NCBI RefSeq assembly: GCF_004348545.1
Contig: NZ_SMKL01000028.1
Location: 1-64,000, forward strand
Reading direction: 5' to 3'
DNA length: 64,000 nucleotides
Source of the DNA: Jiangella ureilytica
GTDB taxonomy: Bacteria > Actinomycetota > Actinomycetes > Jiangellales > Jiangellaceae
The notes beneath the pieces were generated by a model. That model did not search any database, had not been told where the DNA came from, and saw nothing but the letters and a program-made list of their open reading frames with translations. Numbering within the stretch: the first letter of the stretch is position 1; every line of letters begins with the position of its first letter. Shown in pieces: positions 44,014 through 56,866 of the stretch. Position numbers and translations under genes: made by a program.

Positions 44014-44180
44014 CTAGGGTGTGTCTCCCAAGTCTCGGCCGTAGCGAGCGGCGTCCAGGCGGATGCCTCGCAAGGCCGAGGAGGGAGTCATAGCGGGGTT
44101 CTATGACGACCGACGAGAACGCAGCGAGGCGGCGCCTGGGCGTCGCGCAGTAGGCCATGGACTTGGGAGACACACCCTAG
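44014..44180. mobile_element. MITE-like element: 159 bp with 17-bp terminal inverted repeats flanked by CTAG
   Basis: Bases 44014-44034 and 44160-44180 are a perfect 21-bp inverted repeat. As CTAG is itself palindromic, the element is best read as 44018-44176 with 17-bp ends (GGTGTGTCTCCCAAGTC) flanked by a CTAG target duplication, as seen with IS5-group elements. The inside has no gene but carries two more hairpins: CTCGGCC (44034-44040) with GGCCGAG (44074-44080), and GTCATAG (44087-44093) with CTATGAC (44101-44107). The right CTAG provides the TAG stop of the DUF3817 gene. Confidence 0.8.
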
Positions 44181-44494: not shown

Positions 44495-47400
44495 CTACGG
44501 TCCCGGCACCGGCACCACGACCTGGGCCCGCTCGCCGTCCGGGGCGGCGAGGGTGAGGGTGACGAGCAGCGGCGGGGCGAGCTGCACGAACACCTGGTAC
44601 TCGTGCGGCTCGTCCGTGGTGACGCGGACGGCCTGGATGACGGTGCCGGAGGGGAAGCCGCCGGGCCGGGTCGGGATGTCGTCGAGCTCGAAGCGGGCGC
44701 GGACGGGCGGCGGCAGCGGCGCGATCGGGAACGGACGGCGGGTCCGCTGGGCCTGGACGAGCAGGACGTACGGCGGCTCGGCCTCGATGTCGGCGTCGGA
44801 GCGGATGCGGAGCACCACACCGCGGCCCACGATCGTCACCACGTCGATCAGCTCGAGCGACGGCGGCGAGTCGGCGACCGGCGGGACGGTGACGCGTTGC
44901 TCGGTGAGCCGGCTCAGCGGGTCGGCCAGCCGCACGACGACGTCGAGGGGCTGGTGCGGGTCGGGGCGGGTGAGCCAGACGGCGAGCGGCGTCCGGCCGC
45001 CCGACCGCGCACCGGCGACGAGGACGGCGCCGGGGTCGGCGCCGGCGGGCGGGCCGCCGGCGCCGTCGGCGACCGGCCCGATCGGCACCGCCTCCAGCGG
45101 GACCGGCGCGACATCGGTCACACCGCCCGCGCCCGGGCCCGAGACCGCCACGGACACGCGATGGCTGCCCAGCCCCACCGGCCGCGAAGGCGCCGCCGTC
45201 GACGTGGTCACCAGCACCAGCGAGCCGGCACCCAGCGGCAGGGCCACCAGCGGCGCCAGATCGGGCCCGGCCGCCGGCAGGACGGTGACGAGCACCGGCT
45301 CGCAGGCGGGCGACGGGCGGCCGCGGACCGCTTCGACCGGGACGGCGTCGACGGGCACGGCGACCGCGCGGACGAACCAGTCGTCCCAGGACGCGTCGAA
45401 CGGCCCGGACCATTCCGCGGCGTACGCCAGTGAGCCGGACGGCGCCGCCGGGACGACGGCGAACGGCGGGCCCATCGACTCGAACGACCGTGCCGCCACG
45501 GCCGACCGGGTCCGGAACACCCGGAACTCCCGCACCGGGATCCGGCTCGAGGACGACAGCGACAACGTCACCGTCCCGCCGGCACCGAGCACCGACGCGA
45601 CCCTCGGCTCCGACGGCGCCCTCAGGCGCGGTGCGGCGACCGCCTGCAGATGGTCGTGCGCGTCCTGGCCCGCCGACGGCGCCGGCCACGGCGACTCGAC
45701 GCCGGAGCGGGACAGCGTCGTGACGGTGAACAGGTGGATGTCCGTCGACCCCTTCGGCAGGGGCACGTCGGTCTCGCGCGCGGAGCCCGGCAGCACCGTC
45801 AGCCGGCGGAACAGCGCCCGCCGCCGGTCCGGCGCCAGCGCGTCGTAGGCGTCCCAGAGCTGCTGCAGCCGCACGCCGGGCAGCGTTCCCTCGGGCGCCC
45901 GCGGCGCCAGCCCGACGGTCTGGCGCAGCGACGTCTCGGCGACCTCCCACACGATCACGCCGCGCGACGGGTCCAGATCGGCCCCGCCGGGCACGGACCA
46001 GTGCACCCGCGCGTGCGACCGGCCCTGCGCGTCCGGCGCGCTGCCCATCGGCACGCCCGGCGGCAGCGGCGGCGGGATCGGCGCGACCGGCACCGGGCTG
46101 GCCGCGCTGGTCAGCGCCGGGGTCCCGGCCGACGGCGACAGCCCCGACGGGATGCCGATCAGCAGCTGGGTCCGGGTCCACAGCGCGATCCCCCAGCGAG
46201 ACGTCGTGGCGTAGTCCAGCACGGGGACGGCGAACCGCAGCCGGTACCGCCGCCCCTCCTCACCCTGTGCCGGACCCGGCGCCACGACGTTCTCGCCGGC
46301 GGAGTCGAGGTGCTCGACGGTGAGGCCCGGCCCGCCGACCAGCTGAGCGCCACTGAACGACAGGATGGCGTCGCGCCGGAAGCACCCCGGCGGCGCCGCA
46401 CCGAAGGGCGTCACGCCGGCCGGCGGCGAGGTCGTCGACGACAGCATCGGGAACAGCACCGCCCGCACCTCGAGCGCCGACGGCGTCCGCTCCTCCCAGC
46501 CGACGGCGAGCTCGAGCTCCAGCGTCGCCGGACACAGCGACGAACCGGCGAACACCGACGTCAGCGCCATCGCGATGACTCGCGGCCGCGGCGGGTCCGG
46601 CTCGGTCCCGGCGTACAGCGCGTCCTGCCAGCGCGACCACACGCCGAACACGTCCTGCCAGGCGACCGGGTAGCCGGGCTGCCGCCCGCCGCTGCCGATC
46701 GGGATCGCCGCGACCGCGTCGACCATGCCGGTGCGGCGGAACGCCGGGTCGTCGGGCGGGCCGTCCGGCACCGGCAGCAGCGGCCGGAAGTCGCCGGCCG
46801 CGCGGACCGGCAGCAGGCACTCCGCCTCGACCTCCGACAGCGACGCGAACCGGGCCAGCGCCGCGCCGGTCCCCTGGCCGAGCGCGGCCGTCGGCTCCGG
46901 GCGGTCCCACGAGACCCGGATCGTCTCGCGCCACGGCCCGTCGACGGTCTCGGGCGCGCCCAGCCCGTCGCGCACCGCCGTCACCGTCGTCGGCGTCGCG
47001 GTCGAGACGTGCCGGGGCGCCGACGGCACGTACGCCGCCATCGTCGCCGGTCCGCTGCGGTCGGGCAGGTCGGTGTAGTCGGCGGTCACCATGAGGTCGT
47101 CGCCGCCCACGGCGGGCAGCCCCTCACGCGGCTCCTGCAGGTACGACGTGCCGAACCCGAGCGCCAGCGCGAGGAACGGGTCGCCGGCCGCGGGCAGCGT
47201 GAGCAGCGACAACGGCGGCAGCTGTGCGGTCGCGGGGAGCGAGGACCCCTCCGGCCCGTCGACCGGCCCGGTGTCGAGCACGAGGTGCTGCTGATGCGGT
47301 GGCATCGCCGGCCGGTAGATGCGCTCGATCCGCGGCAGCGTCTCGCCGCGGACCTCCTTGAGCAGCCGCTCGTAGTCCGGCGGCACCCAGAGCGGCGCGG

Positions 47401-48136
47401 TCCGCGCGGTGCTGGTGACGGGGTACCAGCCGAGTGGCGGCCCGCCGCGCTGCAGCCGTCGCATCGCCGCCTCGACCGGGTCGACGGGGTCGTCGGCCAG
47501 CCCCTGTTCGCGGGTGTCGTACGACGTGCCGGGCCAGGGGTCGTCGACCGGCAGGCCGACGCGCTCGAACGCCTTCCAGGCGTCGTCCTCGAGCACGCGC
47601 TGCAGCGTAATGATCCGGACGCTCGGGTTGAACCCGTTGACCAGCAGCGCCCGGGTGCCGCCGGAGCAGCGCACCGTCAGCGTGACCCGCGGCCCGCCGC
47701 CGGACGGGACGGCGTCGGCGCCGACGGTCTCGCGCAGCCCGATGCCGCCGCGGGTGACCAGCAGCCCGACCGCACGGGTCGGGTCGACGACGTCGCACTC
47801 GACCTCGACGTACGCGGCGACCCGGCCCCACGACAGCGCCAGCCCGCCGTGCGCACGACGCTGCCGGACGTCGACCTCGCGCGGCTCGTCGTGGCGCTGC
47901 CGGCGCCAGACGACGAACGGCTCGGCCGGAACGCCCAGCTCCTTCGCGCAGGCCCAGCGCAGCTGGATCTCGGTGGGCCGCAGCTCGCGGATGGTCTTCA
48001 GCCGCTCCAGGACGCGCGGCCGGACGTCGACGCCGTGCTGGCGGATCTGGGCCAGCTGCTGATCGGCGATGACCGGCCAGACCAGCGTGGCCGACTCGGC
48101 CCGGAACCAATAGGGCCAGGCGATGCGACGGGCCAT
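44495..48136 (-). CDS. Giant beta-rich protein with FnIII-like modules, second gene of an unassigned two-gene module
   Basis: This 1213-aa protein starts at ATG 48136, whose first base is shared with the stop of the 2262-aa gene (TGATG), with GGAGG upstream. It has no signal peptide or membrane segment. The N-terminus (MARRIAWPYWFRAES, then a helix ERLKTIRELRPTEIQLRWACAKELG in parts) is distinctive. Residues ~700-960 contain FnIII-like units: HARVHWSVPGGADLDPSRG near 716, SRSGVESPWPAPS near 810 and REFRVFRTRSAV near 870. The rest is beta-rich with many Pro/Val/Ala loops. No catalytic motif is visible. I cannot name a family. Codon use is like the surrounding genome. Confidence 0.7.
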   Translation of the reverse strand: MARRIAWPYWFRAESATLVWPVIADQQLAQIRQHGVDVRPRVLERLKTIRELRPTEIQLRWACAKELGVPAEPFVVWRRQRHDEPREVDVRQRRAHGGLALSWGRVAAYVEVECDVVDPTRAVGLLVTRGGIGLRETVGADAVPSGGGPRVTLTVRCSGGTRALLVNGFNPSVRIITLQRVLEDDAWKAFERVGLPVDDPWPGTSYDTREQGLADDPVDPVEAAMRRLQRGGPPLGWYPVTSTARTAPLWVPPDYERLLKEVRGETLPRIERIYRPAMPPHQQHLVLDTGPVDGPEGSSLPATAQLPPLSLLTLPAAGDPFLALALGFGTSYLQEPREGLPAVGGDDLMVTADYTDLPDRSGPATMAAYVPSAPRHVSTATPTTVTAVRDGLGAPETVDGPWRETIRVSWDRPEPTAALGQGTGAALARFASLSEVEAECLLPVRAAGDFRPLLPVPDGPPDDPAFRRTGMVDAVAAIPIGSGGRQPGYPVAWQDVFGVWSRWQDALYAGTEPDPPRPRVIAMALTSVFAGSSLCPATLELELAVGWEERTPSALEVRAVLFPMLSSTTSPPAGVTPFGAAPPGCFRRDAILSFSGAQLVGGPGLTVEHLDSAGENVVAPGPAQGEEGRRYRLRFAVPVLDYATTSRWGIALWTRTQLLIGIPSGLSPSAGTPALTSAASPVPVAPIPPPLPPGVPMGSAPDAQGRSHARVHWSVPGGADLDPSRGVIVWEVAETSLRQTVGLAPRAPEGTLPGVRLQQLWDAYDALAPDRRRALFRRLTVLPGSARETDVPLPKGSTDIHLFTVTTLSRSGVESPWPAPSAGQDAHDHLQAVAAPRLRAPSEPRVASVLGAGGTVTLSLSSSSRIPVREFRVFRTRSAVAARSFESMGPPFAVVPAAPSGSLAYAAEWSGPFDASWDDWFVRAVAVPVDAVPVEAVRGRPSPACEPVLVTVLPAAGPDLAPLVALPLGAGSLVLVTTSTAAPSRPVGLGSHRVSVAVSGPGAGGVTDVAPVPLEAVPIGPVADGAGGPPAGADPGAVLVAGARSGGRTPLAVWLTRPDPHQPLDVVVRLADPLSRLTEQRVTVPPVADSPPSLELIDVVTIVGRGVVLRIRSDADIEAEPPYVLLVQAQRTRRPFPIAPLPPPVRARFELDDIPTRPGGFPSGTVIQAVRVTTDEPHEYQVFVQLAPPLLVTLTLAAPDGERAQVVVPVPGP

Positions 48137-51100
48137 CAGTCCTCCACCTCCCACGGTGCCGCGTCCAGCACGATCCGCAGGGCCTCGGCCCGCTGCTCGG
48201 CGCTGCCGGCCAGCGCATCGCCGGGGACGACGAGGTCCAGCCGCAGCTCCGCGCCGCGCGACCCGGGCGCGAGCAGCACGACCGCCCGCGTCCCGCCCGG
48301 CCCGCGGACCAGCCGGGTGATGCCGGCCCGCGGCGGATCACCGCCCGCCGGCACCGCGGTGCTCGGCTGCAGCGACAGCCAGTCGGCCTCGACCGCGGCC
48401 CACCACTGGTGTCCCGGGCCGGCGGACGGATCGGGCGGCCCGGCGACGACGGTCGGCACCGGGCGCGACCGCCACATCGCCTCGCTGCTCTCGACGACGA
48501 CGGCGACCGGCTGCGGCACCGCGTCGCCCGACCAGAGCACGTGCACGACCGGGTAGCGCGGCACCTCCGGCACGGCCAGCCCGGCCGCCTGGTAGGCGGC
48601 GTCGAGCACGTCGCCGGCCGGCGCGACCGGCAGCGTGCCCAGGGCCGCCGGCGACGGCACCAGCCGCTGCTCGCGGGGCGCCAGCCGGACCAGCTGCGCC
48701 AGCTCCCCCACCGTGCCGAACCGCGACGTCGTGAAGCCGACGCGGTGCACGCGCCGGCCTGTGGCCCCGGCCGGCGCGTTCTTCGGCACGGCCTCGATGT
48801 CGAGGAGGTAGTCGGTCAGCGGCTGCAGGTCGTACGGCAGCGTGACGATGGTGCCGTACGCGCTGCTACCGCTGGACGACGTGCACGGCAGCTCGTCGAG
48901 CAGCTCGGTGACGGCCTGCTGCCACGGCGTCATCACCCCGGCCAGCGCCGGCGTCAACGACCCCAGCACCCCGCCGAGGCCCGTCGGCAACGTCAGCGCC
49001 CCGCCGGCCGGCCCGCCGCCCGGCGGTTCGGGATGGTGGCCGGACGCCGCCTGCACGCCGACCCGCAGCTCCTCGCCGTAGGCGTCGAACAGCGCGGTGA
49101 CGTTCTGGGTGGCCAGCGCGATGCGGATCGGCTCGGCGCACAGCACGCCGGTCTCGTTCATCGACGGCGCACTGGCCAGCAGCCAGCCACCGAGGTCGGC
49201 CGGCGCCTCGTCCGGCCCGTCGGCGCCGAAGCGGAAGTCCTGGACCTGCTCCGCGCCCCAGTTCTCCTGAGCGGTGGCCGACGGCTTGGCCTCCTGCTGT
49301 ACCGACTCCGCACGCCAGCCGACCCGCACGGTGTACTGCCGCGACGGCACCAGGAGGGCGACGTCGGTGGGGTCCTGGCTGACGGTGGACTCCAGCAGGT
49401 CGCGCTCGGTGGTGACGACGCGGCTGTCGTAGTCGTAGCGGAACCGCTCGGCGCCGGTGAGGCCGACGGCGGCGATCAGCCAGTACGGCGTGGCGACGAG
49501 GTCCTCCTCACCGCGGCCGGCGCCGATCTCGACCGCCGTGACCTGGCCCGGCACGTCGACGATCACACGGCAGAGCAGCAGGTCGCGCTGGTTGGCGACG
49601 ACGCGGGCGGCGAGCCGGCCGGCCCGCTCGATCGGGTCGGCCCACGGCCCGTCCGGGTCGGTCCAGTCGGCGGGCAGCGGGTTCGACGACGTGACCATCG
49701 AGTCCGGCGTGACCGGCTGCCGTCCGACCTCCGTGCCGTCGGCGTCGCGGCAGACGACGCTCAGGCCCTCGTTGAGCATCCGCTCGGAGACGAGCAGCAG
49801 CAGCTCGAGCGCCTCTACGCCGTCGTCGCAGCGCAGCCGCAGGCAGTTGGCGAGCTCCGACGGGCTGAAGCCGGTCTCGTCCCACACTCTCTTAACCAGC
49901 TCGCGCTCGTCCTCGGGCGCGTCCGGTGCGGGCTCGGGCTCGTCGCCCGACGGCGAACGCAACACCCGGCCCTGGCAGCGCAGCGGCGTGCGCGAGAACT
50001 CCTTGTCCCAGGCGGTGTCGACCCAGGTGGCGGCGAGGTCGGCCAGCGACGCGCCGGCCGCCATCAGCTCGACGACGTCGCCCAGCGCGTCGCCGCTGGT
50101 GGGCAGGGCGGCGTTGCCGTACTCGAGCGGGTTGCCGGCGTCCCAGTCGTGCACGGACTCGACCAGCCGGATCCGCCCCTGAGGGCACGGCACGGCGTCG
50201 CCGACGACGATCGCCGGGTCGGTGCCCTGCAGCAGGTCGGCGACGGCGTCGCCGGTGCGCCAGGCCTCGGTGACGCCGAGCGCGGCCCGCACGTCCGCCG
50301 TCCGGAAGGCGCCGTCGGGGTCCGGCCAGGCGACGCCGTCGAGCCGCCAGCCGGCCGGGTTCGGGCCCGGCGGCTTGCCGTCGAACGTCCACAGCACGAA
50401 GGCGGGCGGCGCGACCTCGGCGCAGACGTGCCCCCAGCGCTCGCGGACGCTGGTCGTCAGGCTCTCGCCGTAGGGCACGGCCCGCGGGGTCGGCGTCGGC
50501 AGCCAGGACAGCAGCGCGAGCGCCGGGCCCAACTGGCTCTGACCGGGCGCGTCGCGGGCCCACCACGTCGCCGGGGTCTTGCCGGCGGGCGGGTCCGGCT
50601 GCAGGTCGCCGAGCAGTTCGACGCGCGTGACCTGGTAGCGCCACCAGCGGTCGGCGCGGCGCACCCACGGGTCGGCGCCGGCGCCGGACTCGCCGCGCGC
50701 CTGCCCGCCGAGCACGACGTCGCCGGCCGCCACCATGGGCGGGACGTCGAACAGCACCACCGGCACGGCGTCGAGCGGCACCGTCGGCACCGGACCGGCG
50801 TCGTCCTCGTCCAGCGCGTCGGCGAGCCTGCCGTCGACGGCGCGGTCGGTGGCGCTGCCCTCGACCAGCGCGGGCGAGCGGCTGACCAGCGAGACGCCGG
50901 CGACCAGCGGCGGCGCGGGCGGCGGCGACGGCTCGGACTCGCCGATGGTCAGCTCGATGCAGCCCTCGATGTCGAAGAAGAACAGGTCGACCTTGCCGCA
51001 CACCTCGCCGTGGATGTAGGTCCGCTCGACCTCGACGCCGTTCTCGAGCTGGCGGCCGACCAGCACCGTCAGCTCCGCCTTCGCGGACACGCCGACGACC

Positions 51101-54100
51101 CACAGCCGCAGCTCGCCGCGGGCGTAGATCGTGCCGCCGATGGCGAACGGCTCGAACAAGACCAGCGCGTCGAACCCGGCCGCGACCTCGAAGTACAGCC
51201 CGACGGCCTTGCTGCCCATGAGGACGCACTGCAGGTGGAAGCCGACGGCGATGGCGAGACCGCTGGTGACGATCGGCAGCTCAGGGTTGGCGAGCGTGGT
51301 GCCGTCGCCGTGGATCATCAGGTAGCCCGTGCCCTTGAAGGCGTCGAGCACCCGCACGGTGACCGGGTCGGTGTAGCTGCCGAGGTCGATGAACCAGTTC
51401 CGCGACTGCTGCAGGTCGAAGAACGCCGTCACCGGGACCCGGATGTGCAGCAGGTCGACCACGTCGTACTCGGCGACGATGCCGATGGTGATGGTGCCGC
51501 GGCCCAAGTCGAGGTCGAGGACGGCGAGGAAGGTCGCGCTGCTCTGCGACTTCAGCACCGGGGGCAGGCTCAGCACGTCGGCCTTCATCATCAGCAGCAG
51601 CCGCGGCCCCGGCACCTCGACCAGCACGATGCCCTTGAGGTGCAGCAGGAACCCGCCCTCGGCCGTGCCGAGCATGACGCCCGCCGCGATCGCGAACGAG
51701 CCCCCGGACAGCTCCCAGCCGGCCGGGTGCATGACGTTGAACCCGCGCGCCGGAGTGAGCTGCGCCTCCAGCCACCGAAGCGCCGGCGCCTGCACGCCCG
51801 GCGGCTCCAGCCGGCGGTAGTTCACGCCGACGCCGCCGAGGAAGCCGAAGATGCCCAGGCCGGAGTTGCCCAGTGGCAGCGGCACCGGGAACTCCACCTC
51901 GGCACCGACCAGCACGCCGGTCGTCCCGGCCCGGCTCTCCAGAGCCAGGATCGCCGCCGCACGCAGCCCGACCGAGGGGAAGGTCAGGTCGAACGCGCCC
52001 TTGAAGCCGAACTCGGTGATCTCCAGGTACCCGGTGCCGTGGATGGCGCCGGGGATGTCCAGCGTCGCGCCGAGCTTGGTCAGCTGCGGCGCCTCGGCGG
52101 CGTCGAGCCGCAGCCGGACCCGGACGGTGTCGACCTCGACGATCCCGAGGTCGACACCGAGCCCGACCTCGACCTCGAGGTAGGTCGGGTTGAGCCGGCT
52201 GACCTTCACCCCGAGCACCCGCAGCAACGAGTCCAGCGGCGGCGTGGCGGCCAGCGACCCGGCCGGAACGTCGACGGTGTAGCCGCGGCTGGGGTCGAAG
52301 ACCGGGAGCGGTACGTACTCGACCGTCCCGTCACCGTCGGTCTCGGTGTCCCACGAGCTGCGGACGCCGACGGCCTTGTAGCGGGTGACGATCGGCTTGG
52401 CCGGGTCGACGCGGATGAAGCCGAGGTCGAACGAGAACGCGGTCTCGAGGTCCAGCAGCACGCTGACCTGCGTCGTCGTCGGTCCGCTGCCGGTCGCCGG
52501 GTCGACCAGGCCGTCGGTGACGACCAGCTCGCCGCCGCGCAGGATCACCGACTGGGTCTGGATCCGCCCGGCGGCGCCGAGCCCGACCGCCGCGCTGCCC
52601 AGCACCACGAGCGGCACCAGCTCACCCGCCGTCGGGCTCGGCGGGGTCGCGGCGGCCAGCAGCGGCGACAGGGCGGCGACGGCGCCCAGGACGTCGAGCG
52701 CGGTGTTCGAGCCGGTCGCCGACCGCTCGACCTTCGCCAGCCCGTCGAGGTCGCCCTCGATCGCCCGGAATTCCGCGCCGGCCAGCCAGGACGATCGGTC
52801 CTCGGCGATCCGGAGCCGGACCAGGAAGGTGCAGATGCCGTCGCTGGGGTTGGTCCGGGCCGGCAGTTCGTCGCTGGTGTGCTCGTCGAGCCGGGCCTCG
52901 GCGGCGGTGCGGACGTCGAACTCGCCGTAGACCTCGGCGCGGACGAACGTGCCGCGGATCAGCTCGACCCGGATGCCGATCTTGCGGAAGCAGTCCGGCA
53001 CGAGCGGTCGCTGCGGCTCCGGGTCGACGTCGGTGACGTCGGGCGCGGGCGGGCGCTTCAGCTCTGCGGTGATGGTCTCGGTGGTGTCGGCGGCCGACGC
53101 CGGAGTGGCGGTCGCGCGCCACCAGTCCGACGCGCCGGGCGCGGGCGCCGTCGACCCTTGCGCCGTCCCGTGGCCGTGCGCGGTGCCGGCGCTGACGGCG
53201 GTGAAGCTCAGGTCCGGGTGGGTCTCCAGCAGGTGGATCAGGGCGTCGCGACGGCGCTCGCTCAGCTCCTGGTTGTGCTCGACGGTGCCGGCGTCGTCCT
53301 TGTTCTCGTAGGACGCGAAGCCCTCGACCGTGATCGGGGTGTTCTTCGGCAGCTGCCCGAGCCGGGCCAGCGAGTCCGCGCTCAGGAACGACGGCACGCT
53401 CCCCCAGCCGGTCCGCGACGACGCCGCCGCGGTCCCGACGTTCAGCGGGTTGCGGGTCCAGTCGTTGGCCGGCGGCGAGGGGAACTCCGTCGCCGCCGGG
53501 TGGTTGAACAGCGTGTACATGCTGAACGGCGCGACCGTCGCCGCCGTCACCGTCCTCGTGGCCGTCACGGTCACCGTCGCGCCGGCCGCCACCGGGATCT
53601 GCGCCGTCGGCCCGCCGGCGCTGCCGCCGGGCCAGCTCCACGCGACGGTGCCGCCGTCGTCGGGCTCGAGCGCGACGGTGGCATGGGTCACGGTCTGTGA
53701 CCTGACGACGACCCGGTGGCCGGTGCTGGTGACGGTCCGCGGCACCACCTGGTCCGACGGCGGCGAGGTGGGTGCGCCGCCGCCGGACGGGGTGGCCCTT
53801 CGGACGGTGATGGTGCGGGTGTACTCGTGCAGGCCGGCGTCGCTGACCCGGACGTCCAGCGTCATGGTGTCCGTCGCCGGCAGCAGGATGGTGCGCCGGT
53901 CCAGCGTGGTCGGGTCGGCGCCGTCGACCAGCACGCGGTAGGCGTACGGCGCCAGCCCGCCGCCGGCGGAGACGTACAGCGTCGCGGAGTCCGGCAGCTC
54001 GACCGGGTTCAGCACCGGGTCGCCGTCCTGGACCGGATACCACTCCCCCGCCGGCCCCTGGAACGCCAGCCGCACCGTCGGCGACTGCCCGCGGTTGACG

Positions 54101-54924
54101 ACCTCGGCCTCGAACAGGCCGGTGACGCCGGCGTGCCGGCCGACGCCGATCCACAGGTCGCGCACGCCGGCGTTGGCGGCCAGGCCCTCCAGCCCGCTCG
54201 GCGCGACGAACAGCCGCACCTCGGGCAGGTACAGGCCCTGCCACTCGTCGGGCTGGGTGCGCGCGTTCGCCGGCACCCCGGCCGGCCCGGCCTCGCCGGT
54301 CAGGTCGAGGGTGGCGCTGCGGAACGCGAACCCGACCACCTCGCCGGGGCCGATCAGCGCGTGCCGCGGCTCCATGCGGATGAAGTCGAAGATCTGGTCC
54401 TGGGGCGAAGTGCCGCCGATGGTGCTGCTCAGCAGGTCGACCTTCATGCCCCCGCCCGCCGGGCGCAGCAGCCGGACCCGCAGCGCGGGCAACGTGAAAC
54501 GCACGTCCGGGTTGTCGGGGTCGGCCCGCAGCTGGCCCTGCGCGTCCAGCTTCGCGCCGCGCAGGAACGGCACCCGCACGAACGGGCCCGGCGTGTCGAT
54601 GACGAGCCGGACGGTACCGTCGGGATCGCCGCCCGGCCCGGTGAGCCGCAGGCCGAGCTCGAGGCCGACCCTCGGGTCCGGGAAGACGATCGGCGTCCCG
54701 GTGCTGATGGCCGCGCTCGGGCTGTGGCTGAACGACCCGGTCGCGGGATCCACACTGAGCGGCTGGTCACCGCCGGCGGTGGTCGTCCAGATCCGCCAGG
54801 TGAACCCGTCGTCCTCGGCGCGCTCGGACTCGACCGGCGTGTCGACGCTGTCGAGCACGGGCTCCAGAGAGTCCAGCTTGCCGCCGCTCTTCAGCGACGA
54901 CGGCATGTCGTCCCACAGGCTCAT
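48136..54924 (-). CDS. Giant multidomain protein with OmpA-like segment and DUF6603-like hydrophobic beta core, first gene of the module
   Basis: This 2262-aa protein starts at ATG 54924 behind a GGGGGGG run. It begins MSLWDDMPSSLKSGGKLDSL, without a signal peptide. Residues ~40-330 are beta-sandwich, including EWQGLYLPEVRLFVAPSG and WIGVGRHAGVTGLFE. Ig-like parts occupy ~330-470. Residues ~470-625 contain an OmpA-like pattern (ITVEGFASYENKDD, ELSERRRDALIHLL). Residues ~845-1325 are long alternating hydrophobic strands (LGIFGFLGGVGVNYRR, FLLHLKGIVLVEVPGPRLLLM, FDALVLFEPFAIGGTIYARG) that recall DUF6603 proteins. The C-terminal ~900 residues are acidic and beta-rich. It may form a large scaffold or a lipid-handling groove; these roles are speculative. 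Confidence 0.7.
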   Translation of the reverse strand: MSLWDDMPSSLKSGGKLDSLEPVLDSVDTPVESERAEDDGFTWRIWTTTAGGDQPLSVDPATGSFSHSPSAAISTGTPIVFPDPRVGLELGLRLTGPGGDPDGTVRLVIDTPGPFVRVPFLRGAKLDAQGQLRADPDNPDVRFTLPALRVRLLRPAGGGMKVDLLSSTIGGTSPQDQIFDFIRMEPRHALIGPGEVVGFAFRSATLDLTGEAGPAGVPANARTQPDEWQGLYLPEVRLFVAPSGLEGLAANAGVRDLWIGVGRHAGVTGLFEAEVVNRGQSPTVRLAFQGPAGEWYPVQDGDPVLNPVELPDSATLYVSAGGGLAPYAYRVLVDGADPTTLDRRTILLPATDTMTLDVRVSDAGLHEYTRTITVRRATPSGGGAPTSPPSDQVVPRTVTSTGHRVVVRSQTVTHATVALEPDDGGTVAWSWPGGSAGGPTAQIPVAAGATVTVTATRTVTAATVAPFSMYTLFNHPAATEFPSPPANDWTRNPLNVGTAAASSRTGWGSVPSFLSADSLARLGQLPKNTPITVEGFASYENKDDAGTVEHNQELSERRRDALIHLLETHPDLSFTAVSAGTAHGHGTAQGSTAPAPGASDWWRATATPASAADTTETITAELKRPPAPDVTDVDPEPQRPLVPDCFRKIGIRVELIRGTFVRAEVYGEFDVRTAAEARLDEHTSDELPARTNPSDGICTFLVRLRIAEDRSSWLAGAEFRAIEGDLDGLAKVERSATGSNTALDVLGAVAALSPLLAAATPPSPTAGELVPLVVLGSAAVGLGAAGRIQTQSVILRGGELVVTDGLVDPATGSGPTTTQVSVLLDLETAFSFDLGFIRVDPAKPIVTRYKAVGVRSSWDTETDGDGTVEYVPLPVFDPSRGYTVDVPAGSLAATPPLDSLLRVLGVKVSRLNPTYLEVEVGLGVDLGIVEVDTVRVRLRLDAAEAPQLTKLGATLDIPGAIHGTGYLEITEFGFKGAFDLTFPSVGLRAAAILALESRAGTTGVLVGAEVEFPVPLPLGNSGLGIFGFLGGVGVNYRRLEPPGVQAPALRWLEAQLTPARGFNVMHPAGWELSGGSFAIAAGVMLGTAEGGFLLHLKGIVLVEVPGPRLLLMMKADVLSLPPVLKSQSSATFLAVLDLDLGRGTITIGIVAEYDVVDLLHIRVPVTAFFDLQQSRNWFIDLGSYTDPVTVRVLDAFKGTGYLMIHGDGTTLANPELPIVTSGLAIAVGFHLQCVLMGSKAVGLYFEVAAGFDALVLFEPFAIGGTIYARGELRLWVVGVSAKAELTVLVGRQLENGVEVERTYIHGEVCGKVDLFFFDIEGCIELTIGESEPSPPPAPPLVAGVSLVSRSPALVEGSATDRAVDGRLADALDEDDAGPVPTVPLDAVPVVLFDVPPMVAAGDVVLGGQARGESGAGADPWVRRADRWWRYQVTRVELLGDLQPDPPAGKTPATWWARDAPGQSQLGPALALLSWLPTPTPRAVPYGESLTTSVRERWGHVCAEVAPPAFVLWTFDGKPPGPNPAGWRLDGVAWPDPDGAFRTADVRAALGVTEAWRTGDAVADLLQGTDPAIVVGDAVPCPQGRIRLVESVHDWDAGNPLEYGNAALPTSGDALGDVVELMAAGASLADLAATWVDTAWDKEFSRTPLRCQGRVLRSPSGDEPEPAPDAPEDERELVKRVWDETGFSPSELANCLRLRCDDGVEALELLLLVSERMLNEGLSVVCRDADGTEVGRQPVTPDSMVTSSNPLPADWTDPDGPWADPIERAGRLAARVVANQRDLLLCRVIVDVPGQVTAVEIGAGRGEEDLVATPYWLIAAVGLTGAERFRYDYDSRVVTTERDLLESTVSQDPTDVALLVPSRQYTVRVGWRAESVQQEAKPSATAQENWGAEQVQDFRFGADGPDEAPADLGGWLLASAPSMNETGVLCAEPIRIALATQNVTALFDAYGEELRVGVQAASGHHPEPPGGGPAGGALTLPTGLGGVLGSLTPALAGVMTPWQQAVTELLDELPCTSSSGSSAYGTIVTLPYDLQPLTDYLLDIEAVPKNAPAGATGRRVHRVGFTTSRFGTVGELAQLVRLAPREQRLVPSPAALGTLPVAPAGDVLDAAYQAAGLAVPEVPRYPVVHVLWSGDAVPQPVAVVVESSEAMWRSRPVPTVVAGPPDPSAGPGHQWWAAVEADWLSLQPSTAVPAGGDPPRAGITRLVRGPGGTRAVVLLAPGSRGAELRLDLVVPGDALAGSAEQRAEALRIVLDAAPWEVED

Positions 54925-54961
54925 ACCTGCCCCCCCGAAGGTTTCGCCTTGCCGGGTGATC

Positions 54962-54985
54962 TACCAGAAAACGGGCGACCTGGTA
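54962..54985. promoter_or_regulatory. Dyad upstream of the giant gene pair
   Basis: TACCAG (54962-54967) and CTGGTA (54980-54985) are exact reverse complements with a 12-base spacer, 38-61 bases before the ATG of the 2262-aa gene. Position and symmetry fit an operator or activator site for a dimeric protein. The inner part is AT-richer (GAAAACGGG). Confidence 0.5.
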
Positions 54986-55073
54986 ACCCCATGGCGACCA
55001 CCTGTTCCGGAACGGGGGACGACACGCCGGTCCGCGAGCGGTGGCCGGTACGTCGCCGCAGCGCGGTGAACCT

Positions 55074-55991
55074 CTATGGGGCGGTGAGCGCGACGCTGCC
55101 GTGCCAGAGCTCGGCCGCCGCGACCCGGTCGTAGGACTGCTCCGACGAACGGGCCTCGTGCCGGCCGCGGAAGTACCGTCCGCTCACGCCGTCGAGCGCG
55201 GGGTCGTCGATCAGGCGGGCGAGCGCCGCGCCGGACGTGCGCGTGGTGTGGACGTTGCGCGGCAGCACGGTCGCCGCCGGCATGAGGTAGCGCCAGGCGA
55301 ACCGGAACACCGGGTGGTAGTCGCGGGCCAGCCCGGTGCCGGGCATGAGTCCCGGGTCGAACGCGTTCACCGTCGTGCCCGGGTCGTCCAGTCGCCGGTC
55401 CAGCTCATAGGCGAGCAGCACGGCGCACAGCTTCGACGTCGTGTAGCGGCGACGGCCCTCCTCACGCGGATCGGTCCCGTCCCCGTCACCGGGCGCCGCG
55501 GCGAGAGCGGACACACTGGCCAGGCGCGGCGGCGGGAAGCCGTGCCGCCGCGCCGGGTCGTGCGTGTCGCTGGCGACCATGACGATGCGCGCGGGCGCCA
55601 CGAGGTGCGGCCGCAGCAGCTCCACCAGCAGGAAGTGCGCCAGGTGGTTGACCGCGAACGTCACCTCGTGCCCGTCGGCGGTGCGCCGTGTCCCGGTGAC
55701 CACCATGGTTCCGGCGTTGCAGACCACCGCGTGCAACGGCGGCAGCTCGCGTCCGGGCCACTCGCGGGCGAAGGCCCGGACCGCGTCCAGCGACTCCAGG
55801 TTCAGCACCAGCGGCGTCACCGGCAGCCCGGACCGGTCCGCGAGCGCCGCGGCCCGCGCCGCCGTCCGGGCCCGGTCGCGGCCCGTGACGACGGCGTGCC
55901 AGCCGCTCGCGCGGCGGCCCAGGGCGCGGACGGTCGCCGTGCCGAGGCTGCCGGTGCCGCCGGTGATCAGCACGGTCCGGGCGGGACTCAT
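55074..55991 (-). CDS. Short-chain dehydrogenase/reductase (SDR)
   Basis: This 305-aa protein has the SDR cofactor motif TGGTGSLGTATVRAL (residues 10-24), NAG in HAVVCNAGTM near residue 92, the catalytic Ser region VMVASDTHD, and YTTSK (Tyr-x3-Lys) near residue 185. It resembles protochlorophyllide-reductase/retinol-dehydrogenase-like SDRs that act on small molecules. The ATG overlaps the stop of the NmrA-like gene by four bases. Confidence 0.92.
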   Translation of the reverse strand: MSPARTVLITGGTGSLGTATVRALGRRASGWHAVVTGRDRARTAARAAALADRSGLPVTPLVLNLESLDAVRAFAREWPGRELPPLHAVVCNAGTMVVTGTRRTADGHEVTFAVNHLAHFLLVELLRPHLVAPARIVMVASDTHDPARRHGFPPPRLASVSALAAAPGDGDGTDPREEGRRRYTTSKLCAVLLAYELDRRLDDPGTTVNAFDPGLMPGTGLARDYHPVFRFAWRYLMPAATVLPRNVHTTRTSGAALARLIDDPALDGVSGRYFRGRHEARSSEQSYDRVAAAELWHGSVALTAP

Positions 55992-56866
55992 GGCCGGCCG
56001 GCCGGGAGCGGCGCGGCGACCAGGTCGCGCAGCGTCGTCTCGATCGGCGTGGTGCAGCGGTGGGCCCGGTCGCCGCGCGGCACCAGCAGGCCACGGCCGG
56101 TGGCGTCGTAGAGCGCGACCAGCTCGGCCGCCAGCTCCGGCGGCAGGCCGGCGCCGAGCAGCGCGTCGGTCCAGGCCGGCCGCGGCAGGACGGCCACCTC
56201 GACGTGCCGGCCCAGCAACCCGGCCAGCGCCTCGGCCACCTGCCGCTCGGTGTACTGGGGCGCGTCGAGGTCGACGACCTCGGAGGCGAGCGGCGGGTCC
56301 GCCAGGGACGCCGCGACCGCCGCGCCGACGTCGCGGGTCGCGGCCATCGGGACCGGGACGTCGGCGGATTCGCCGAACACCGGATAGACGCCCTCGGCGA
56401 GCACGGCGGGGAGCACGTCACCGGCCTTCTCCTGGAAGTGCGGCGAGCGGATCGCCGTCACCACCGCGCCGGTGCCGCGCAGGCCGTTCTCGAGGTGGTG
56501 CAGCCAGCGGACCGGCCCGGTCCCGTCGGGCAGGTCGGCGCCGTACGACGACAGCGCGACCACGTGCAGGACGCCGCTGCCGGCGACGCCCGCGGCGATC
56601 GTGTCGGCCAGCCGCCGGTGGTCGGCGTCGGTGCCGGTGGCGATGGTCGGCAGCAGGACGAACGCGCCGCGGCAGCCGGCCAGCGCCGTGGCCAGCGCGG
56701 CCGGGTCGGTGAGGTCGGCGACGGCCACCTCCGCGGCGCCCGCGCGCCGCCATGACTCGCCCTGGGCCGGATCGCGGACGACGGCCCGGACCTGCTCACC
56801 GGCGGCGAGCAGGGCGCGGGCGGCGGCGCCGCCGACGTGGCCGGTGATCCCGGTGATGGCGTACAT
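55988..56866 (-). CDS. NmrA family NAD(P)-binding protein
   Basis: This 292-aa protein starts at ATG 56866 after GGAAGGAG. It has YAITGITGHVGGAAARALL (residues 2-20), VRAVVRDPAQG, FVLLPTIATGTDADH, VVALSSYGADLPDGTG and SPHFQEKAGDVLPA, as in NmrA/QOR2-type atypical SDRs. The first gene of a two-gene unit with the SDR, it diverges from an AraC regulator that probably controls it. Confidence 0.9.
   Translation of the reverse strand: MYAITGITGHVGGAAARALLAAGEQVRAVVRDPAQGESWRRAGAAEVAVADLTDPAALATALAGCRGAFVLLPTIATGTDADHRRLADTIAAGVAGSGVLHVVALSSYGADLPDGTGPVRWLHHLENGLRGTGAVVTAIRSPHFQEKAGDVLPAVLAEGVYPVFGESADVPVPMAATRDVGAAVAASLADPPLASEVVDLDAPQYTERQVAEALAGLLGRHVEVAVLPRPAWTDALLGAGLPPELAAELVALYDATGRGLLVPRGDRAHRCTTPIETTLRDLVAAPLPAGRP

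Follow-up and report, generated by a model that had tools for sequence, protein, structure and literature searches.

Two very large reading frames lie side by side in a 64,000-nucleotide stretch of Jiangella ureilytica DNA (contig NZ_SMKL01000028.1, positions 1 to 64,000), here called the window, and they raise the question of whether their products act together and, if so, as what. A first-pass annotation of the sequence had proposed that the two proteins form one large cytosolic or injected complex.

Two giant genes joined by a stop/start overlap

Gene A occupies 48136..54924 on the minus strand and encodes 2262 amino acids. Gene B follows on the same strand at 44495..48136, with 1213 amino acids counted from the ATG at 48136. 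The uninterrupted runs of 2262 and 1213 codons that had been reported were found at these coordinates, and the GC content at their codon positions is typical of genes: in DNA of about 73% GC, third-position GC (GC3) is 0.97 in A and 0.96 in B, and second-position GC is 0.53 and 0.57, respectively. A and B carry the codon signature of genuine genes in the window DNA. Besides the open frame and codon bias, A is defined by a match to PF20248 and a seven-member alignment, and B by a six-member alignment.

The reported one-base overlap is readily seen in the sequence, where the stop codon of A and the start codon of B share TGATG (48134..48138, minus strand). Among the seven loci that carry the pair, the overlap is one base in five, TGATG or TAATG being found also in L040, L041, L002 and L003. 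A four-base ATGA overlap occurs in L042 (genome G040), and the Paracoccus locus (L004) has a one-base gap. The C-terminus of A at this junction ends in a similar [AP/AI]WE-type tail in six of the seven loci, and the Paracoccus protein is without it.

A dyad upstream of A, proposed as the pair's own, did not withstand inspection: its 6-bp arms (54962-54967 and 54980-54985) are one of seven inverted pairs within 181 bases and have no counterpart in the related genome G012 when compared by eye. It had also been stated that no phage, eCIS or secretion gene lies beside the pair, and this agrees with our scan of ten neighbouring proteins, all from commonplace metabolic and regulatory families (a short-chain dehydrogenase, DUF3817, a cupin/AraC regulator, an NAD(P)H-binding protein, a sigma factor, a metallophosphoesterase, a siderophore-interacting protein, an FAD oxidoreductase, an alcohol dehydrogenase and a WYL regulator). 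Between the sigma-factor and DUF3817 genes we noticed a 163-base element (44016-44178) whose ends are perfect 19-base inverted repeats (AGGGTGTGTCTCCCAAGTC); no such match is expected by chance in the window, and the element resembles a miniature inverted-repeat transposable element.

A is a divergent DUF6603 protein

Judged by its sequence, A is a divergent member of the DUF6603 family. It matches the Pfam model PF20248 with 43.7 bits (E 1.9e-11, cut-off 27) over residues 906-1140 (51505-52209), the best stretch covering profile positions 8-247 of 502 rather than the full length. Around this match, residues 836-1334 (50923..52419, minus strand) form a DUF6603-like core of amphipathic beta strands. 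The first-pass annotation had placed such a strand run at about residues 845-1325, and the calculation bears it out: the beta-type moment of residues 836-1334 is 5.1 s.d. above that of shuffled sequences, and the helix-type moment is 3.2 s.d. below.

An OmpA-like segment had been suggested at about residues 470-625 of A. When the profile of seven A proteins was compared with PDB sequences, it matched the OprF C-terminal domain 5u1h with an E-value of 2.5e-6 over profile positions 506-604, along with further OmpA-type chains, which upholds the suggestion and places the domain at about residues 505-605 (53110..53412, minus strand; limits approximate). The Pfam OmpA model does not match A of the window (P0001) itself, and in two homologues it scored 18.8 and 13.8 bits, under the cut-off of 27.2.

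For B, scans of Pfam and NCBIfam gave no match. The FnIII-like units proposed for it are weakly supported: Pfam gave no hit, and Foldseek with a low-confidence model of B (whole-model pLDDT 32.5) returned immunoglobulin-like chains alone, the best with an E-value of 2.5e-3. Solely at about residues 520-655 is the pLDDT of this model mostly 50-70, so that a weakly indicated Ig/FnIII-like sandwich may lie there (46172..46579, minus strand). The model of the DUF6603 core of A reached a pLDDT of 29.1. Predictions for A and B were each made from two-row alignments, and the low confidence of both models is due to this small alignment depth.

In line with the first-pass annotation, which recognised no system, the profile searches tied neither protein to a characterised family. 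Against PDB sequences, A and B as single sequences gave no match at a useful level, and the best match of the six-member B profile had an E-value of 0.21. No PHROG of known function matches A or B; the matches of 32 residues of A to phrog_25293 (function unknown, E 0.00079) and of B to phrog_37356 (E 0.46) were set aside as uninformative. PADLOC found nothing for A, B or the protein P0005, and its DrmC-type PLD matches for P0009 were taken as general similarity to phospholipase D (PLD). A search by name for DUF6603 or PF20248 found no paper in the library searched.

The two genes occur together

In the window's class, 36 of the 393 genomes searched have a match to PF20248. Four of these 36 carry the subfamily of A, as judged by similarity to P0001: the window's own genome, G012 (92% identity to A of the window), G040 (54%) and G312 (48%). 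A profile of B matches four of the 393 genomes, and these are the same four. With profile A5, made from the A core, a search of 396 genomes of the phylum returned the window gene and a single 20-bit match; core-type DUF6603 proteins present among those genomes were not recovered by it.

Outside this class, the pair occurs in a Granulosicoccus MAG (A 53% and B 37% identity) and on plasmid pRtrCIAT899c of Rhizobium tropici (32% and 25%). On plasmid pAMI4 of Paracoccus aminophilus, A has 23% identity and the adjacent partner is only weakly similar to B (hhalign probability 88). If most homologues of A had stood alone, the proposed coupling would have been in doubt; an adjacent large partner was in fact present at all seven subfamily loci examined, six with a clear B (the window included) and one with the weak partner. 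Six of 72,556 plasmid records matched A, and viral contigs yielded no relative of A or B. These results support the view that A and B are a co-inherited, coupled pair without a characterised relative. A comparison of the A and B trees was too weak to be used (six or seven tips, internal bootstrap values of 37-100).

Within the genus of the window, the gene is present in two of 12 genomes. Sequences corresponding to window positions ~44,49x and ~56,01x lie directly next to each other or are separated by 58 bases in G006 (L082) and G014 (L084), and A, B and the short-chain dehydrogenase gene (55074-55991) are therefore missing from the same site in these two genomes as one segment, 44495..56010. 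By eye, no flanking repeat was seen at this segment. In G012 the pair has the same left border and about 14 kb of other DNA on its right side; in G015, G011 and G008 the right flank alone was found. The GC3 of the pair genes falls in or close to the range of the genes around them in each host, so a recent acquisition from GC-rich donors is not supported.

The ratio dN/dS between the window and G012, a single genome pair with no control gene, was 0.242 for A and 0.208 for B, showing that both are under similar purifying selection. Along A it was lowest at residues 751-1000 (0.08) and highest at residues 251-750 (0.48-0.50).

Third genes and other DUF6603 loci

In Rhizobium tropici (L003, 30453-33716) a third gene of 1087 amino acids follows B. 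Its C-terminus is PLD-like (BLASTP E-value of 1e-6 to the Mycetohabitans PLD, hhalign 94.7) but lacks both His and Lys at the aligned motif, which we take to be the second HKD motif of PLD; the N-terminal part has no Pfam match. Mycetohabitans has a PLD gene (PLDc_2, 61.5 bits) flanked by a DUF6603 gene and a B-like partner, and the Mycetohabitans relative contains a LamG-like stretch and a lectin-like C-terminus. The Mycetohabitans-type order is seen again on contig C614 of G028 (L056), in addition to the core-type DUF6603 locus of that genome. From reading frames and annotations, no PLD-like gene stands next to the pair in the window, L040, L041, L042, L002 or L004, and across the four carrier genomes no Rhizobium-type PLD was found, apart from ordinary-looking PLDs in G040.

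Sixteen of the other 32 class genomes with PF20248 were compared at their DUF6603 loci (L043-L055 and L057-L059); for the remaining 16 the core type was assigned from strong PF20248 scores alone. At all 16 compared loci the core DUF6603 proteins form a similarity cluster separate from A. According to crude gene calls in the stretches compared, they have other giant neighbours, namely family F1 at 12 loci and family F2 at nine, both without a Pfam match, and it follows that B is not required throughout the family. Kinship of B with F1 found no support (hhalign probability 0.1), nor did profile comparison tie it to F2. LamG-like and metallo-beta-lactamase-like neighbours occur at two loci; among ten core-locus neighbours scanned, one has Laminin_G_3 and another a weak metallo-beta-lactamase match, and in a Pfam scan of 81 core-locus neighbours there was no phage or secretion family among the 25 of 122 families listed.

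Some members of B, of the Mycetohabitans partner and of F1 have an N-terminal motif in common, [DT][GE][IV]xL[RHQSD]W. It occurs in eight of 167 proteins of at least 300 amino acids, seven of them partner proteins and one unrelated. As the motif was written post hoc and is missing in several partner proteins, we regard it as a lead only. Tentatively, the pair might be one branch of widespread, undescribed giant two-protein machines, each with a DUF6603 scaffold, a partner of 1100-1300 amino acids bearing this motif and variable third proteins (PLD-like, lectin-like or metallo-beta-lactamase-like); we think this possible rather than probable. If true, such machines would be present in about a tenth of the sampled class genomes and on symbiont plasmids.

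A possible two-subunit complex

Given that A and B stand side by side in distantly related bacteria, they probably form one big joint complex, which seems to be new to study. That they are obligate partners is the best-supported part of the mechanism. From the coupling, the co-occurrence, the selection and the conservation of residues we infer a single non-enzymatic scaffold; the fuller proposal, in which one large, beta-rich complex without enzymatic activity is built from A and B as its two obligate subunits, we consider about evenly balanced.

The earlier statement that the proteins have no catalytic motif fits the alignments, in which no His and no Lys occur among the invariant columns, 188 in A (counted with up to two gaps allowed) and 112 in B; the invariant residues of both are mostly Gly, Pro, Leu and aromatic. 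Coupled translation would set a fixed ratio of A to B and let the chains fold onto each other. In A, the DUF6603 core would fold into a long beta structure that is hydrophobic on one side, and our guess is that this side either lies against B or takes up a non-polar ligand. Docking surfaces could be provided by the OmpA-like domain of A and the Ig/FnIII-like part of B. An enzyme would be an optional addition to the complex, because some relatives have a PLD-like third gene and the window has none. The pattern of presence and absence suggests an accessory function in interaction or conflict rather than a housekeeping one.

The coupled overlap conserved across phyla counts in favour of a two-subunit complex, and the low confidence of the separate models of the A core and of B (pLDDT 29 and 32.5) counts against it. 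The weak Paracoccus partner and the different giant neighbours of core DUF6603 proteins also count against it. Two further observations weigh against our preferred explanation, namely the presence of a contractile tube family in three of the four carriers and paired cysteines, which are more in keeping with an oxidising site than with the cytosol.

Alternative explanations

The cysteines lead to the first alternative, a large surface-located or released complex for adhesion or antagonism, stabilised by disulfides, which would get out of the cell through lysis or by an unknown route. In A, eight Cys columns are well conserved and group into four pairs, each with an identical pattern of loss among seven homologues: 1309/1322 are lost in Rhizobium, 1580/1650 in Paracoccus, 645/1929 in both, and 1501/2014 are present in all seven. 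These paired losses suggest that A, which lacks a signal peptide, contains disulfides, and they argue mildly against a purely cytosolic site. The LamG-like stretch of the Mycetohabitans relative, the presence/absence pattern and the plasmid locations point the same way. However, only seven A sequences underlie the pairs, the one from L042 is missing residue 645, just one Cys is invariant in B, no secretion gene was among the ten neighbours scanned, and no signal peptide is apparent. On the latter point the earlier description held: in ten proteins (A, B and eight relatives, P0011 being without its true N-terminus) no N-terminal stretch reached a mean Kyte-Doolittle value of 1.6, the highest being 1.58 in the Paracoccus partner (P0007), and single internal 19-residue peaks slightly above 1.8 were seen in P0001 (1218), P0002 (966) and P0010 (598). 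We regard this explanation as doubtful.

In a second alternative, the strands of DUF6603 would form a lipid-carrying hydrophobic groove of the bridge-like or AsmA-like kind, and the PLD-like gene of the relatives would act on lipid. The strong beta amphipathicity of residues 836-1334 of A speaks for it, as do the PLD genes beside DUF6603 in Mycetohabitans and G028 and the PLD-like C-terminus in Rhizobium. Yet the A1 profile matched 28 PDB sequences with no AsmA, TamB or VPS13 chain among them, A and B lack a membrane anchor and a signal, the six loci listed above have no adjoining PLD-like gene, and the Rhizobium copy lacks the two residues named above. Lipid handling of this kind appears unlikely.

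The suggested link to contractile systems found no support, and it is highly improbable that A and B serve a contractile injection system as cargo or as a structural component: both are giant proteins without a signal and three of four carriers have genes of the tube family PF06841 elsewhere, but so do four of ten non-carriers, carrier G040 has none, the ten neighbours scanned include no sheath, tube or baseplate gene, and A matched none of 50,697 phage records. Elsewhere in the G012 genome, two tube-like genes stand in tandem. In the window's genome (G000), the single PF06841 match over the cut-off is a frame elsewhere that starts with a signal-like stretch and sits, by eye, beside pyruvate-dehydrogenase-like and fatty-acid-synthesis-like genes.

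Comparison with known systems

More than 10 kb is kept as a coupled, selected pair across phyla, although neither protein has a known function, and the pair offers a concrete, testable way into DUF6603. A resembles this family in scoring over its cut-off and in aligning with core DUF6603 proteins of the class (hhalign 95.7 over 374 columns), but it matches half of the profile, and the core members have other giant neighbours. The likeness to the OmpA C-terminal domain is a fold-level match of one segment of A, which differs in being signal-less and below the Pfam OmpA cut-off. In the Mycetohabitans operon (NZ_CP132742.1 and NZ_CP062177.1, plasmids) the DUF6603 giant is a homologue of A (hhalign 99.8) and its large partner resembles part of B (hhalign 91.7), whereas the gene order is reversed, an intact PLD gene stands between the two (partner, PLD, DUF6603) and a lectin-like C-terminus is present.
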